Positions 1-22,882 of a stretch of DNA of 64,000 nucleotides are shown here, piece after piece; positions within the stretch are counted from its first letter, which is position 1, and each line of letters begins with the position of its first letter. The translations under genes and the position numbers were made by a program. The notes below the pieces were generated by a model. That model was not told where the DNA came from. It did no database searches and worked only from the letters and a program-made list of their open reading frames with translations. The stretch lies in NCBI GenBank assembly GCA_017626035.1, contig JAGAJR010000026.1, positions 62,001-126,000 on the forward strand, written 5' to 3'. This DNA is from Alphaproteobacteria bacterium. Lineage in GTDB: Bacteria > Pseudomonadota > Alphaproteobacteria > RF32 > CAG-239.

Positions 1-135
1 CATTCCAGGTAAAAGAATACTTTCCCAAACGATTGTTTTCACGGCACAAAATCTTTTCGATTTTCTTTTGAATATATTTATACCGGATTCTGTTTGCAAA
101 TTTTTTAATTTGTGTTGCCTTGATAGATTTGACAT
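1..135 (-). other. Open reading frame running off the left edge (doubtful)
   Basis: From an ATG at 135 the minus strand stays open for 45 codons to the window edge. The predicted peptide is basic (many Lys and Arg) and I recognise no family. There is no clear Shine-Dalgarno site before this ATG, and the frame is also open upstream to another ATG near 168. It may be the start of a real gene that continues to the left, or chance in AT-rich DNA. Confidence 0.2.
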
Positions 136-443
136 GATAGCCAGGCTAGGTCGTTTTACTCCCATACGCCGGCCTTGATTTTCCGGCGATGCCGTCGGCA
201 TGCTACGTCTGCCTAAAATCTGCGTTTCAAACCATCTGTTTCGCTGGTTCAAATTAATTATTGGCCTCGAACTGCTCTTGTTTCGTAAGTGTTGCGTATA
301 ATCGCAACACTAACTTCACTTCGGTCAAGCCAGATGTAACACTCGCTTTTGTCCGCTGTTGCTTACTGCTCGTTAACATCTGCTATACTGAAAAGCTAAA
401 AACTTGCCATTCAAGGCAACTTTTTTACTTTTCAGCCTCTCTC
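136..443. other. Stretch without a recognisable gene
   Basis: I see no convincing coding region. Several short dyads are visible: a 6-bp GC-rich inverted repeat near 168-188, a dyad ATGCCG/CGGCAT at about 189-201, and a perfect 9-bp stem at 288-296/303-311 with a 6-base loop. The 10-mer TCGCTGGTTC, which resembles the T-arm of tRNA-Pro, occurs at 241-250 and again at 448-457. The region may be a decayed element beside the tRNA. Confidence 0.35.
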
Positions 444-546
444 GAGGTCGCTGGTTCTTGTCGGTAATTCAATCCAATAAAAAAAACTGCCGCAAAGGGC
501 AGTTTTTTTTATTGGTCGGAATGACTGGACTCGAACCAGCGACCTC
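444..546. repeat. Imperfect inverted repeat copying the 3' part of tRNA-Pro and its terminator
   Basis: Bases 444-457 are the exact reverse complement of 533-546, the T-arm side of tRNA-Pro. Bases 474-491 are the exact reverse complement of 498-515. The stretch between the arms (458-473 against 516-532) pairs only partly and has one indel. A partial inverted copy of the tRNA 3' region therefore faces the real tRNA across the terminator hairpin. It could be left over from integration or rearrangement at the tRNA. Confidence 0.7.
479..510 (-). terminator. Terminator of tRNA-Pro(CGG)
   Basis: An ACTGCC/GGCAGT stem flanked by runs of A and T lies just downstream of the minus-strand tRNA-Pro. It is symmetric enough to work in both directions. 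Confidence 0.75.
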
Positions 547-589
547 TTCGTCCCGAACGAAGCGTTCTACCAGGCTGAACTACATTCCG
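513..589 (-). tRNA. tRNA-Pro(CGG)
   Basis: The minus strand folds into a full cloverleaf. The acceptor stem is CGGAATG/CATTCCG, the anticodon loop is TTCGGGA (anticodon CGG), the T-arm carries GGTTCGAGTCC, and the discriminator A and CCA are encoded (513-516). Together with tRNA-Pro(TGG) at 37976 this gives two of the proline isoacceptors in the window. Confidence 0.95.
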
Positions 590-681
590 TTGGTTTCAAC
601 GTATGTATGTTTATCACATAATTTTTTTATTGCAATTATAAAAATCAAAAAATTGAAAAAAATGTTATTTTTTTATCAAAG

Positions 682-713
682 AAAAAGCCCGTTCATCCGA
701 ACAGGCTTTTTTT
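682..713 (-). terminator. Terminator of the SemiSWEET-GGDEF gene
   Basis: An AAGCC-GTTC/GAAC-GGCTT hairpin with flanking A and T runs sits just past the stop codon of the minus-strand gene that ends at 728. Confidence 0.7.
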
Positions 714-727
714 AAGTTGAGTTTTTA

Positions 728-1594
728 TTATTTTTTTGTTGTTTTTTTCTTTTCTTCTTTTTTGTAAGTTTTTACGCGGATACGGCCTTTAGACGGGATT
801 TCGGAGATGGCTTTGATTGCTTTTTGCGTTAATCCGTTTAAGTCGTCTTTTTCCGCAGAGGAACAAATACCCAATAACATTTGGATGTTAAAGCTTTGCG
901 AACCGTTTTTAATTTCAATATTGTTAACGCTTTCCAAAACGCGTTCGGATACTTTTTTAGCAATTTTTTCGTCAGTATTAGCCAGATAAATTGCAAATAA
1001 ATTATCGTCAATACGAGCAATAAAGTCGCTGTCCCGCAAAGCTTTTTCCAATGTTTTGGCGGTGTATTTCAATGCCCGGTTGCGGTACTTTCCGCCCATT
1101 TGTTCATGGATGGTTTCCAGATTGTTTATTTTTCCGACAACAATAGAAAACGGTTGTTTATGAATTGTGGATTCAATGATTTTTTGAGAAACGCTTTCTT
1201 CGTAGTATCTTTTATTGAAGACATAAGTTAACGGATCTCTGCGGTAACGTTCGATTTTATCCTCTTCGTCGTAGTACAAAATTAAAAGCAAAATGAGGAA
1301 TGTGAATAAAAATGTTATCAAGTTGGCAATGGCCATAATCCATGAATCGAGATAAACGCCGTATGCAAACCAACAAATCAAGCTTAAGCTGTACATGGTG
1401 TACATATAGCTGGATAATCCGGTAATGTTTTTGGTTCTAAGAATACGGACTGTTTGAATGGCAAATGCGGAAACGGTTGCCAGTCCGGCGGCATAACCGA
1501 TATAAGCATAAATTGTTCCATCCGAGAACATTAAATTTGTAACTTCTATTACTGTAGAAATAAACTCAGATACTGTATTTAGACACCCCGTCAT
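728..1594 (-). CDS. SemiSWEET (PQ-loop) domain fused to a degenerate GGDEF domain
   Basis: The N-terminal part (about residues 28-110) is a SemiSWEET-type half-transporter. It has three predicted membrane helices, the family pattern around IQTVRILRTKNITGLS, a conserved Trp in CWFAYGV and a conserved Asn in IANLITF; these last two correspond to sugar-contacting positions in known SemiSWEETs. The PQ dipeptide is IQ here. The C-terminal part (about 120-275) opens like a diguanylate cyclase (DPLTYVFNKRYYEE), but the GGDEF signature is replaced by RIDDNLF. Cyclase activity is therefore unlikely, and a sensory or binding role is my inference. The tail is Lys-rich. The ATG at 1594 is preferred because AGGGG lies 7 bases upstream; a GTG at 1618 is the alternative. 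The gene stands alone, with its own terminator. Confidence 0.85.
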   Translation of the reverse strand: MTGCLNTVSEFISTVIEVTNLMFSDGTIYAYIGYAAGLATVSAFAIQTVRILRTKNITGLSSYMYTMYSLSLICWFAYGVYLDSWIMAIANLITFLFTFLILLLILYYDEEDKIERYRRDPLTYVFNKRYYEESVSQKIIESTIHKQPFSIVVGKINNLETIHEQMGGKYRNRALKYTAKTLEKALRDSDFIARIDDNLFAIYLANTDEKIAKKVSERVLESVNNIEIKNGSQSFNIQMLLGICSSAEKDDLNGLTQKAIKAISEIPSKGRIRVKTYKKEEKKKTTKK

Positions 1595-1726
1595 ATTTAA
1601 TCCCCTGATAATTTTCACAATACAATTATTTTATAATAAAAGCAGATAAAAGTAAAAAAATATTTACATCCGGGATAAAAAAGCGATAATTGGTAATTCA
1701 AGCGAGCGTATCGGGCAATAAAAAGA

Positions 1727-1755
1727 AAAGCCTTCTCAAACGAGAAGGCTTTTCT
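1727..1755 (-). terminator. Terminator of the tRNA-Cys/tRNA-Asn unit
   Basis: An AAGCCTTCTC/GAGAAGGCTT hairpin with A and T runs directly follows tRNA-Asn on the minus strand. Confidence 0.8.
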
Positions 1756-1761
1756 TTTTAT

Positions 1762-1836
1762 TGGCTCCGACTGCTGGGCTCGAACCAGCGACCAATCGGA
1801 TAACAGCCGATTGCTCTACCACTGAGCTAAGTCGGA
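1762..1836 (-). tRNA. tRNA-Asn(GTT)
   Basis: The acceptor stem is TCCGACT/AGTCGGA, the anticodon loop is CTGTTAT (anticodon GTT), and the discriminator G and CCA are encoded. It is transcribed behind tRNA-Cys and followed by a hairpin terminator. Confidence 0.95.
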
Positions 1837-1847
1837 ATAAGACTTGG

Positions 1848-1921
1848 TGGAGGCCGGTACCGGAATTGAACCGATATACAAGGATTTGCAGTCCTCTGCA
1901 TAACCATTCTGCCAACCGGCC
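1848..1921 (-). tRNA. tRNA-Cys(GCA)
   Basis: The acceptor stem is GGCCGGT/ACCGGCC, the anticodon loop is CTGCAAA (anticodon GCA), the T-arm is GGTTCAATTCC, and the discriminator T and CCA are encoded. It lies 11 bases upstream of tRNA-Asn in the same unit. Confidence 0.95.
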
Positions 1922-2084
1922 AATTGAGTACCACTCACTCAGTGCCTTTATATATACAATATTTTTTTTCGCCGTCAATAACTTTTTTTTATTTTTTTTG
2001 CATATTGCTAAAAAAATACTTTTTTTCTGAAAGTTATAGTCTATCATAATGAAAATTTTTGTGATTAGTAAGGGGTAATCGTAT

Positions 2085-2513
2085 ATGAAAATAGCTATAG
2101 CTGCCGATCACGGCGGATTTGAATTAAAAGAAAATCTGAAAAAACATTATGAAAAACAGGGAATTATTCTTGATGATTTGGGAACCTATTCTACAGACTC
2201 GGTTGATTATCCCGATATTGCGGAGAAAATGTGCAAGAATATCCTTGAATCATCCTCGGATCTGGGTATCCTCATTTGCGGAACGGGAATCGGAATTTCT
2301 ATTGCCGCAAACCGTCATAAGGGGATAAGAGCGGCTGTGCTGTATAGTGATGATGTTGCCCGGCTGGCCAAAGAACATAATAATGCAAACATTATTGTGT
2401 TTGGCGGAAGAACAATGACATTGGACGAAGTTGTCGGCAGAATCGATATTTTCCTGAAAAGTGAATTTCAGGGCGGGCGGCATGGCTGCCGGATTGGCAA
2501 AATGGATGACTGA
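2085..2513 (+). CDS. rpiB: Ribose-5-phosphate isomerase B
   Basis: It interconverts ribose-5-phosphate and ribulose-5-phosphate in the non-oxidative pentose phosphate pathway. The 142-residue protein has the family opening [11 protein letters not shown], the DYPD motif near residue 45, the [13 protein letters not shown] active-site loop near residue 65 and the HNNANI stretch. The length is normal for RpiB. The ATG at 2085 follows AAGGGG at a good distance. It heads a same-strand run with glyA, an order common in alphaproteobacteria, and ends 13 bases before the glyA start. Confidence 0.95.
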
Positions 2514-2526
2514 GAAAGGAAGAAAT

Positions 2527-3783
2527 ATGGATTTTGAAAAAAGTTTGAAAGACGAAGACCGAGAAATCTATGATGCGATTGAGCAGGAACTTGATCGTCA
2601 GCAATATCAAATAGAGTTGATTGCTTCGGAAAATATTGTTTCCCGAGCCGTTTTGGAAGCTCAGGGTTCCATTCTTACCAATAAATATGCGGAGGGTTAT
2701 CCGGCCAAAAGGTATTATGGAGGATGTGAGTTTGTCGATGTCGTTGAAAATCTGGCCATCGAAAGAGCCCAAAAGCTGTTTAACGCCGGTTTTGTCAATG
2801 TCCAGCCTCATTCCGGTTCTCAGGCAAATACCGCTGTTTATGTCGCATTACTTCAGCCTCACGATACCATTATGGGAATGTCTTTGGATGCCGGAGGGCA
2901 TTTGACGCACGGTTCCAAAGTGTCAATTTCAGGAAAGTGGCTTAATTCCGTTCAATACGGGGTTTGCAAAGAAACGGGATTGATTGATTATGACGAAGTG
3001 GAACGTTTGGCTTTGGAGAATAAACCAAAACTGATTATTGCCGGCGGGTCAGCTTATCCGCGGCAAATAGATTTTGCCCGTTTCAGAAAAATTGCCGATA
3101 AAGTTAATGCTTATTTGATGGTGGATATGGCTCATTTTGCCGGTTTGGTAGCCGGAGGCGTCCATCCGAATCCTTTAGAGTGGGCGGATGTGGTTACAAC
3201 AACAACTCATAAAACTTTAAGAGGGCCGAGAGGCGGCATGATTTTGACGAATAACGAAGAAATCGCCAAGAAAGTTAATTCGGCGATTTTTCCGGGAACT
3301 CAGGGCGGTCCGCTGATGCACGTTATTGCCGGAAAGGCTGTTTGTTTTAAAGAGGACTTAACTCCTGAATTTAAGACTTATGCGGCACAAGTTGTCAAAA
3401 ATGCCGAGGTTATGGGACAAGTTTTGAAAAACAGGGGATTGGATTTGGTTTCCGGAGGAACGGACACGCATTTGCTTTTGGTTGATTTAAGGCCTAAGAA
3501 TTTGACAGGAGATGTGGTTGCCAAGGCTTTGGAAGCGGCACACATTACCTGCAACAAAAACGCTATCCCGTTTGATCCGCAACCGCCGAAAGTTACATCG
3601 GGAATTCGGGTGGGAACGCCTGCCGGAACGACCAGAGGCTTTAAGGAAAAAGAATTTGAAATGACGGCAAACTGGATTGGGGATATTGTGGATGCCCTGC
3701 AGAAAGGCAATGCCGAAAAGGTTATTGAAGAAACAAAAGAAAAAGTTATCGCTTTGTGCAAACTTTTTCCGATTTATAAATAA
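2527..3783 (+). CDS. glyA: Serine hydroxymethyltransferase
   Basis: This PLP enzyme converts serine and tetrahydrofolate into glycine and 5,10-methylene-tetrahydrofolate, feeding one-carbon metabolism; thymidylate synthase at 23560 uses the product. The 418-residue chain has the PLP-lysine motif [14 protein letters not shown], the substrate-site region QPHSGSQAN and the [11 protein letters not shown] segment. The frame is open further upstream, but the ATG at 2527 follows GAAAGGAAG and matches the usual N-terminus of the family. It lies just behind rpiB. Confidence 0.96.
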
Positions 3784-3805
3784 AAGAGAAAGAATAAAAT
3801 AAGTT

Positions 3806-5170
3806 ATGATTAAAATTAATTCTAAAAAACTGGTGGAAATTCTCGGTTCAACTTCCCAAGTGGTTGACGTTGACATTGAAAATGTGGTTACGGACAGCCG
3901 TATTGCCAAAAGAGGGGATTTGTTTGTTGCCATTAAAGGCGATAAGTTTGATGCTCATGACTTTGTTAAAGACGTTATAGCCAACGGTGTGGAATTGGTT
4001 GTTGTTGAAAAGATGATTCCGAGTGTTCCGGCAACAAGACAGATTGTTGTTGCCAATTCGGTGGATGCTTACGGCAAAATCGGGGCATATAATCGTTCTC
4101 AATTTAAAGGAACGGTTGTCGGATTGACAGGAAGTGCCGGAAAAACCACAACAAAAGAAGAAATTAAGTATATCCTTTCCCGGTTTGCTCCGACTTACGC
4201 GACAAAAGGAAATCATAACAATCATATCGGGGTGCCAATCAGTTTGTGTGAGATTGAAATGAACGCCGACTATGCCGTAATTGAAATGGGGATGAGTTCC
4301 AAAGGAGAAATCTCCAAGCTGGTTTCTTATACTAAGCCGGATATTGCCGTCATTACCAATGTGTATCCGATGCATATTGAGTTTTTTGACAGTTTTGAGG
4401 GAATTGCCGAAGCAAAAGCGGAAATTTTTGAAGGTTTGAAAGAGGGCGGAACGGCAATCATTAATGAAGATACGAATTTTGCCGATATTCTGAAGAAAAA
4501 AGCCGACGAACACCATGCCAAAATTGTTTCTTACGGGAAGAAAAATATTCTCAGCAAGACGGATGATAATAAGATTGAGGCTGAAATCGGCGGAAAGAAA
4601 GTTTCATTTGAGCTTTCGGGGCAGGGCGAGCACCATATTTACAATGCTTTGTGTGCTTTAACCGTGGCTGATGAACTGGGTTTGGATGTTGTTAAAGCCG
4701 CAGAATCTTTGATAGATTTCGGAGCGTTGGACGGAAGAGGAAGACAATGGCAGTTAAAGTTTGCCAAAGGTGTTTATACTCTGATTGACGACAGTTATTC
4801 CGGACAGCCGGAATCAATGAAACTCGGCATTGAAACCTTAAATAAAATGAAAGTTTCGGGACGCAAAATCGCCGTACTCGGAAAAATGGCGGAACTGGGG
4901 GATTATTCCAAACCGAAGCATATTGAAATCGGGCAGACATTGGCAAAGACGGATGTTGATGTTGTGGTCGGTGTTTGTCCGGAAATGAAGGATATGCTGG
5001 CACAGCTTCCGTCCGGAATAGAACAGCATTATTTTGAAAATAAGGAAGGATTGGATGAATTTTTGTTAAATAAGTTATTGCAAAATAATGATACTATCCT
5101 TATAAAGGGAGCAAGATATTCTTCAAAATTATATCAAGTGGCTGAATCTTTAATCAAAAGCGGATCTTAA
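3806..5170 (+). CDS. murF: UDP-N-acetylmuramoyl-tripeptide--D-alanyl-D-alanine ligase
   Basis: It adds D-Ala-D-Ala to the UDP-MurNAc tripeptide, the last cytoplasmic step in making the peptidoglycan precursor. The 454 residues show the three Mur ligase domains: an N-terminal UDP-binding part with [17 protein letters not shown], the ATP-binding P-loop [13 protein letters not shown] near residue 110 with the following [11 protein letters not shown], and a C-terminal domain with [11 protein letters not shown] and GKMAELG. The gene sits between glyA and nrdR rather than in the usual mra/dcw cell-wall cluster. It ends 8 bases before the first possible nrdR start, so co-transcription is likely. Confidence 0.93.
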
Positions 5171-22479: not shown

Positions 22480-22504
22480 TATTCATTCTTTCAATCAACT
22501 AATT

Positions 22505-22848
22505 AAGCGGGCCGTTCTGTTGCTGGGCGGCCCATTCCCCACTCAAAACTAACCAAAGTTATGAGAATTTACGTTTGTTGCGTTCACTAAGCAGCGATTG
22601 CAACCGGTGCTACGTTATTATCGTTAGCATTCATTTAAATTTGAACCGATAACGGTGGTATCTCACCGGGCACAGCTAAAATACCTTTACTATATCCTGT
22701 CAATCCTGTTTCACCCCCGTTAAATTACATTTCACGAGTTCTTAAAACTCAGAATATGTTTTGCTAATTGGTGGAGGTGCTGGGTACTGCCCCCAGGTCC
22801 AAAATATCTATTTCGTACCGCCTCTAGTGCCGTAGTCAGTTGCCTGAC
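22505..22848 (-). ncRNA. ssrA: tmRNA, circularly permuted two-piece form
   Basis: The acceptor piece comes first and ends in ACCTCCACCA at 22769, with a non-standard T-arm CTGGG-GGCAGTA-CCCAG. An intervening segment of about 50 bases (22719-22768) is removed. The coding piece begins GGGGGTG at 22718, which pairs with CACCTCC of the acceptor end. The tag frame 22590-22628, followed by a TAG stop, encodes ANDNNVAPVAIAA, a normal alphaproteobacterial tag. A GGGCCG/CGGCCC hairpin (about 22508-22533) closes the 3' end. The exact ends are estimates. Confidence 0.93.
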
Positions 22849-22854
22849 TTGCTT

Positions 22855-22882
22855 ATTATATCCATAAAATCCTTATTTTCAA
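22855..22882 (-). promoter_or_regulatory. Promoter of the tmRNA gene
   Basis: The minus strand shows TTGAAA (22877-22882), a 16-base spacer and a consensus TATAAT (22855-22860), just ahead of the acceptor piece. Confidence 0.75.

Follow-up and report, generated by a model that had tools for sequence, protein, structure and literature searches.

Can a protein that joins a sugar transporter fold to a cyclase fold still transport or signal when both halves have lost their signature motifs? Few known sugar transporters are as small as the SemiSWEETs, and one gene in the 64,000-nucleotide stretch of DNA analyzed here (the window) fuses such a domain to a degenerate GGDEF domain. A sequence-only reading of this gene had proposed a sugar sensor that passes on a signal or binds a nucleotide.

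A conserved family of fusion proteins

The fusion gene encodes 288 amino acids on the minus strand (positions 731 to 1594, with the start ATG at 1594 and the stop codon at 728 to 730), and the coordinates 728 to 1594 proposed in the sequence-only reading are correct. A putative ribosome-binding site (AGGGGA, 1601 to 1606, minus strand) lies 6 nt before the ATG, and a hairpin followed by a T run just downstream of the gene (683 to 713, minus strand) forms a putative terminator, both identified by reading the sequence. Translation could also begin at a GTG at 1618, although the ATG is the likelier start. The gene is a single uninterrupted frame, and both domains share one frame in all 27 orthologues as well, which bears out the claimed domain order and in-frame joining and excludes the frameshift between two genes against which the earlier reading had cautioned.

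The gene is solitary in the window, with tRNA genes on either side, and its neighbors vary from lineage to lineage. An operon-based function was rejected on this ground, as a neighborhood that is not conserved offers no operon partner pointing to the output. In three close genomes only (L036, L037, and L038, positions about 1 to 3830), the fusion gene and a cluster for dTDP-rhamnose synthesis are arranged divergently, a layout that is not generalized here. Elsewhere in the window, ARAGORN reports an asterisk-marked tmRNA gene (22496 to 22861, minus strand) with the tag ANDNNVAPVAIAA.

The claimed SemiSWEET domain is found by profile search: Pfam MtN3_slv (PF03083) matches residues 35 to 111 (1262 to 1492, minus strand) above its cut-off (E value of 4.1e-7), and NCBIfam SemiSWEET_2 gives an E value of 6e-16, though below the curated cut-off of that model. 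The GGDEF profile (PF00990) covers residues 119 to 271 (782 to 1240, minus strand) with an E value of 4.8e-22. Among PDB sequences, the first half is nearest to the SemiSWEETs 4x5m, 4qnc, and 4rng, and the second half is nearest to cyclases. Three transmembrane helices span about residues 28 to 54, 62 to 81, and 85 to 106. An AlphaFold2 model based on the orthologue alignment (mean pLDDT, 82.7; pTM, 0.64, which leaves the domain orientation uncertain) also has three transmembrane helices, and its GGDEF half has a TM-score of 0.91, normalized by the length of 3ign, to that structure, a GGDEF domain crystallized with c-di-GMP. In the model, TM3 and the near-invariant linker YYDEEDKIERYRRD (residues 85 to 118; 1241 to 1342, minus strand) form a single predicted helix up to the GGDEF domain. 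Seven columns of the linker region (Y107, Y108, D109, E111, D112, E115, and R118) are invariant among the orthologues. This linker and the loss of the hinge proline described below are additions to the earlier reading.

The architecture recurs in related genomes. Among 152 genomes searched from its taxonomic family, 27 distinct, full-length orthologues were found, spread over six genera, 42 to 73% identical and all matching both domains. Most of them also occur in named public records, all from uncultured alphaproteobacterial or proteobacterial assemblies, e.g., Azospirillum sp. CAG:239. Outside the family, no full-length fusion was found, at the thresholds used, in evenly drawn samples of 385 class-level (alphaproteobacterial) and 399 phylum-level (pseudomonadotan) genomes, about 780 together. 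In a tree with stand-alone SemiSWEETs, the SemiSWEET halves of the fusions group together as a separate clade (support, 0.999), a grouping that suggests a single origin. Purely vertical inheritance was rejected, as congruence with the tree of the intact cyclase is only partial (Mantel r = 0.32), and some transfer of the fusion within the family is likely.

Between close pairs, dN/dS is about 0.02 to 0.05 in the SemiSWEET half and 0.06 to 0.15 in the GGDEF half; purifying selection acts on both halves and is stronger on the membrane half. An assembly artifact was rejected on the strength of these values and of the 27 orthologues carrying both domains. The fusion is therefore confirmed as a real, conserved membrane protein family of uncultured gut alphaproteobacteria.

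A membrane half with a lost hinge and a retained pocket

Residues of the SemiSWEET half map onto E. coli SemiSWEET with an offset of 25. The hinge proline of the PQ motif (E. coli Pro21) is Ile46 in the window (1457 to 1459, minus strand) and Ile or Leu in every fusion (27/27), whereas the stand-alone SemiSWEETs of the family all have Pro (19/19); the Fisher P value of 2e-13 for this contrast is overstated, as the sequences are related by descent. The Gln of the PQ motif is conserved in the fusions, as are the intracellular-gate residues F44, M64, Y65, and Y68. The sugar pocket is likewise retained, with Thr40 (E. coli Thr15; 1475 to 1477) and Trp75 (E. coli Trp50; 1370 to 1372) present in 27 of 27 sequences and Asn91 (E. 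coli Asn66; 1322 to 1324) in 26 (all on the minus strand). The Trp and Asn previously described as sugar contacting align with these pocket residues of E. coli SemiSWEET.

In E. coli SemiSWEET, the P21A substitution reduces sucrose uptake nearly to the level of empty liposomes (Lee et al., PMC4309421). According to the same study, N66A lowers uptake, sucrose can be transported without the Trp, and TM3 extends into the cytoplasm (PMC4309421). Loss of the hinge proline speaks against continued transport by the SemiSWEET half, and, judged from its residues, this half has probably given up transport and kept its pocket. Two points count against a receptor: loss of the hinge proline is compatible with slow transport and is not a strict exclusion of it, and the sugar pocket is generic. 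The missing extracellular-gate residues Arg57 and Asp59 were considered as a receptor feature and dropped, as the stand-alone SemiSWEETs of the family lack them too.

A dead active site, a retained I-site, and the c-di-GMP system

The GGDEF domain is degenerate, as had been proposed from its signature: RIDDNLF (residues 194 to 200; 995 to 1015, minus strand) stands in place of RYGG(D/E)EF, versus RYGGEEF in the intact cyclase of the family. When the 27 fusions are aligned with 34 intact cyclases from their own bacterial family, the active-site metal Asp, the Lys, and the Asn are absent from all fusions, the first Gly remains in 2 of 27, and the second motif Glu remains in 3 of 27. The fusions thus have neither the GG(D/E)EF motif nor the metal and GTP residues of diguanylate cyclases. 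The I-site triad is complete in all 27, consisting of Arg187 (1034 to 1036), Asp190 (1025 to 1027), and Arg218 (941 to 943), all on the minus strand. We take these to be the counterparts of PleD R359, D362, and R390, a mapping made by motif from established knowledge of the PleD structure. The fusions therefore share the RxxD motif and second arginine of degenerate GGDEF receptors that bind through the I-site. With 14 of about 155 columns invariant, the chance that three prechosen columns would all be invariant is about 6e-4. The DxLT turn is also kept.

Of the other degenerate GGDEF proteins of this bacterial family, 16 were sampled, representing three kinds; none has an unbroken triad, and none has the equivalent of Arg218. 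Besides the fusion, three conserved families of degenerate GGDEF proteins lack a full I-site, two of them PAS-GGDEF proteins and one a multi-TM protein with the motif YRYSxDEF (L085, L086, and L087; relatives, L153 to L172). RxxD and R390 are common in active cyclases too, and in the fusions they may have been kept for stability, which counts against a receptor. Judged by its motifs, the GGDEF half is ruled out as an ordinary cyclase, yet it has kept the product-binding site. The earlier suggestion of a sensor that could bind a nucleotide is supported and can be specified, in that the likely nucleotide is c-di-GMP at the retained I-site; GTP at the active site no longer fits, that site being lost.

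The genome containing the window (1.6 Mb) encodes five GGDEF proteins, one intact (7TM-PAS-GGDEF, RDDDIVARYGGEEF) and four dead, together with two degenerate EAL proteins and one HD-GYP protein with an intact HD-GYP motif; no PilZ match was found in this genome. The two degenerate EAL proteins, which have lost the EAL motif, are encoded in tandem, with the gene for a CckA-like histidine kinase/receiver protein directly downstream (L088/L089, G000:C7:15679-17587). Every one of the 27 fusion genomes has an intact diguanylate cyclase with catalytic and I-site motifs, and genera in which that cyclase has no strong match do not carry the fusion. This co-occurrence was dropped as strong evidence and is supportive only, as the cyclase is found in most genomes of the family. 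The GGDEF half of the fusion is closer to this cyclase (about 84 bits) than to any PDB sequence (best, 46 bits).

In several fusion genomes, that of the window among them, another gene encodes a stand-alone SemiSWEET whose PQ motif is intact. The intact cyclase heads a conserved locus in which an rRNA methyltransferase-like gene, a lipoprotein gene, and a transketolase gene follow (L193 to L198; L197 in the genome of the window). In many genomes, genes for a stand-alone SemiSWEET and for a class II fructose-bisphosphate aldolase come next, and the locus lies mostly on one strand. Independently of the fusion, the cyclase locus ties SemiSWEET, central sugar metabolism, and c-di-GMP together.

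A possible receptor, its alternatives, and its relatives

These features lead us to suggest, at somewhat less than even confidence, that the fusion forms a homodimeric receptor in the inner membrane, composed of a pseudotransporter and a pseudocyclase, neither transporting nor catalytic, for a sugar-like ligand and c-di-GMP, with ligands and output deduced from sequence. The three-helix half would dimerize in the manner of SemiSWEETs and bind a small polyol or sugar in its central pocket. By analogy with SemiSWEET topology, the N terminus would be periplasmic and the GGDEF half cytoplasmic, where its I-site may bind c-di-GMP supplied by the intact cyclase of the same genome. The states of the two ligands would be coupled by TM3, which runs on into the linker helix, and the output could be altered packing of the GGDEF dimer or altered binding of a partner protein. 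Sugar availability and the c-di-GMP level would thereby be integrated without sugar transport or c-di-GMP synthesis. More tentatively, the nontransporting SemiSWEET dimer may report sugar and the nonsynthesizing cyclase c-di-GMP, so that one protein would integrate carbon supply with a second messenger. A two-ligand receptor coupled through TM3 is the simplest account because the moving and catalyzing parts have been lost, the binding parts have been kept, and the linker is near invariant.

The retained parts could also be read otherwise. The conserved pocket (Thr, Trp, and Asn) and intracellular gate (F44, M64, Y65, and Y68), in the most constrained part of the protein, would suit a sugar facilitator whose pore is opened or closed by c-di-GMP binding at the I-site. 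We consider this unlikely, as the hinge proline, whose mutation nearly abolishes transport by EcSemiSWEET, is replaced in every fusion, and the stand-alone, PQ-intact SemiSWEETs could transport instead. The dead GGDEF domain might alternatively heterodimerize with the co-encoded cyclase, or cross-link to it through c-di-GMP shared at the I-site, and so tune its activity by sugar. The presence of an intact cyclase in all 27 fusion genomes, the greater similarity of the GGDEF half to that cyclase than to its best PDB match, and the absence of the fusion from genera without a strong cyclase match would fit such a role, but the cyclase is common to most genomes of the family anyway and the gene-tree distances correlate only partly, which makes cyclase modulation improbable.

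We give a similarly low probability to a sugar sensor that uses the GGDEF fold as a mere dimerization or protein-binding scaffold, with no nucleotide ligand. Such a scaffold would account for the disappearance of all catalytic residues and the retention of the DxLT turn and linker, but it leaves unexplained the complete invariance of the I-site triad, which these bacteria have lost in their other degenerate GGDEF proteins. A functionless, decaying relic or an assembly artifact, for which the loss of signature motifs in both halves might speak, is highly improbable: it is already contradicted by the dN/dS values, and the 27 intact orthologues, all with both domains, form a single well-supported clade.

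The proposed receptor has partial counterparts among known proteins. With the SemiSWEETs of E. coli (4x5m/4x5n) and Leptospira biflexa (4qnc) and with 4rng, the fusion shares three TM helices, the pocket Thr, Trp, and Asn, the PQ Gln, and the intracellular gate; it differs from them in the Ile or Leu at the hinge position and in the attached cytoplasmic-type signaling domain. Unlike the fusion, PopA and PelD have no transporter-type domain, and their N-terminal parts differ, consisting of receiver domains in PopA and other membrane and GAF parts in PelD. Like the fusion, both combine a dead active site with retained I-site residues, and PopA is a degenerate GGDEF protein that binds c-di-GMP via its I-site (PMC5052742). 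The KDEL receptor is a SWEET-fold receptor that has lost its first PQ motif (PMC7561476) and thus, like the fusion, exemplifies a SWEET/PQ-loop fold used as a receptor after PQ motif loss, although it is a eukaryotic, seven-helix trafficking protein with peptide ligands and an unrelated output.

Fusions of transporters with signaling domains are already known (Amt-GGDEF, PDB 8qj3; SLC5-histidine kinases, PMC13022988), and all 27 proteins described here resemble such transceptors in joining a transporter fold to a signaling domain in one chain. Amt-GGDEF (PDB 8qj3, 8qj4, and 8qpf) likewise places a GGDEF domain after a transporter fold, but that fold is Amt and the substrate is ammonium, whereas the fusion has a SemiSWEET fold and a dead cyclase. 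CbrA and related SLC5-histidine kinase transceptors also sense nutrients with a transporter and a signaling domain in one polypeptide (PMC13022988, PMC7096432); they differ from the fusion in the SLC5 fold, in transporting histidine, and in having a histidine kinase as output. Our literature search found no paper mentioning SemiSWEET together with GGDEF, and the word "cyclase" is absent from a broad survey of SWEET/SemiSWEET diversity (PMC5742349). The claim that no protein of this layout had been described therefore stands uncontradicted.

What is new in the fusion is an unusually clean double loss of activity combined with a double retention of binding sites. If the receptor reading is true, this would be the first bacterial SemiSWEET receptor and the first SemiSWEET coupled to c-di-GMP, as far as the literature searched shows. 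For the question of how a transporter fold becomes a receptor, the clade offers a lost hinge, a kept pocket, and a single origin, with the PQ-intact stand-alone SemiSWEETs of the same bacteria as a comparison set. The c-di-GMP system in the genome of the window is stripped down, with a single intact cyclase (7TM-PAS), one HD-GYP protein, four dead GGDEF proteins, and no PilZ match, and the fusion, as the only dead GGDEF protein there that keeps the I-site, is a leading candidate for its receptor.
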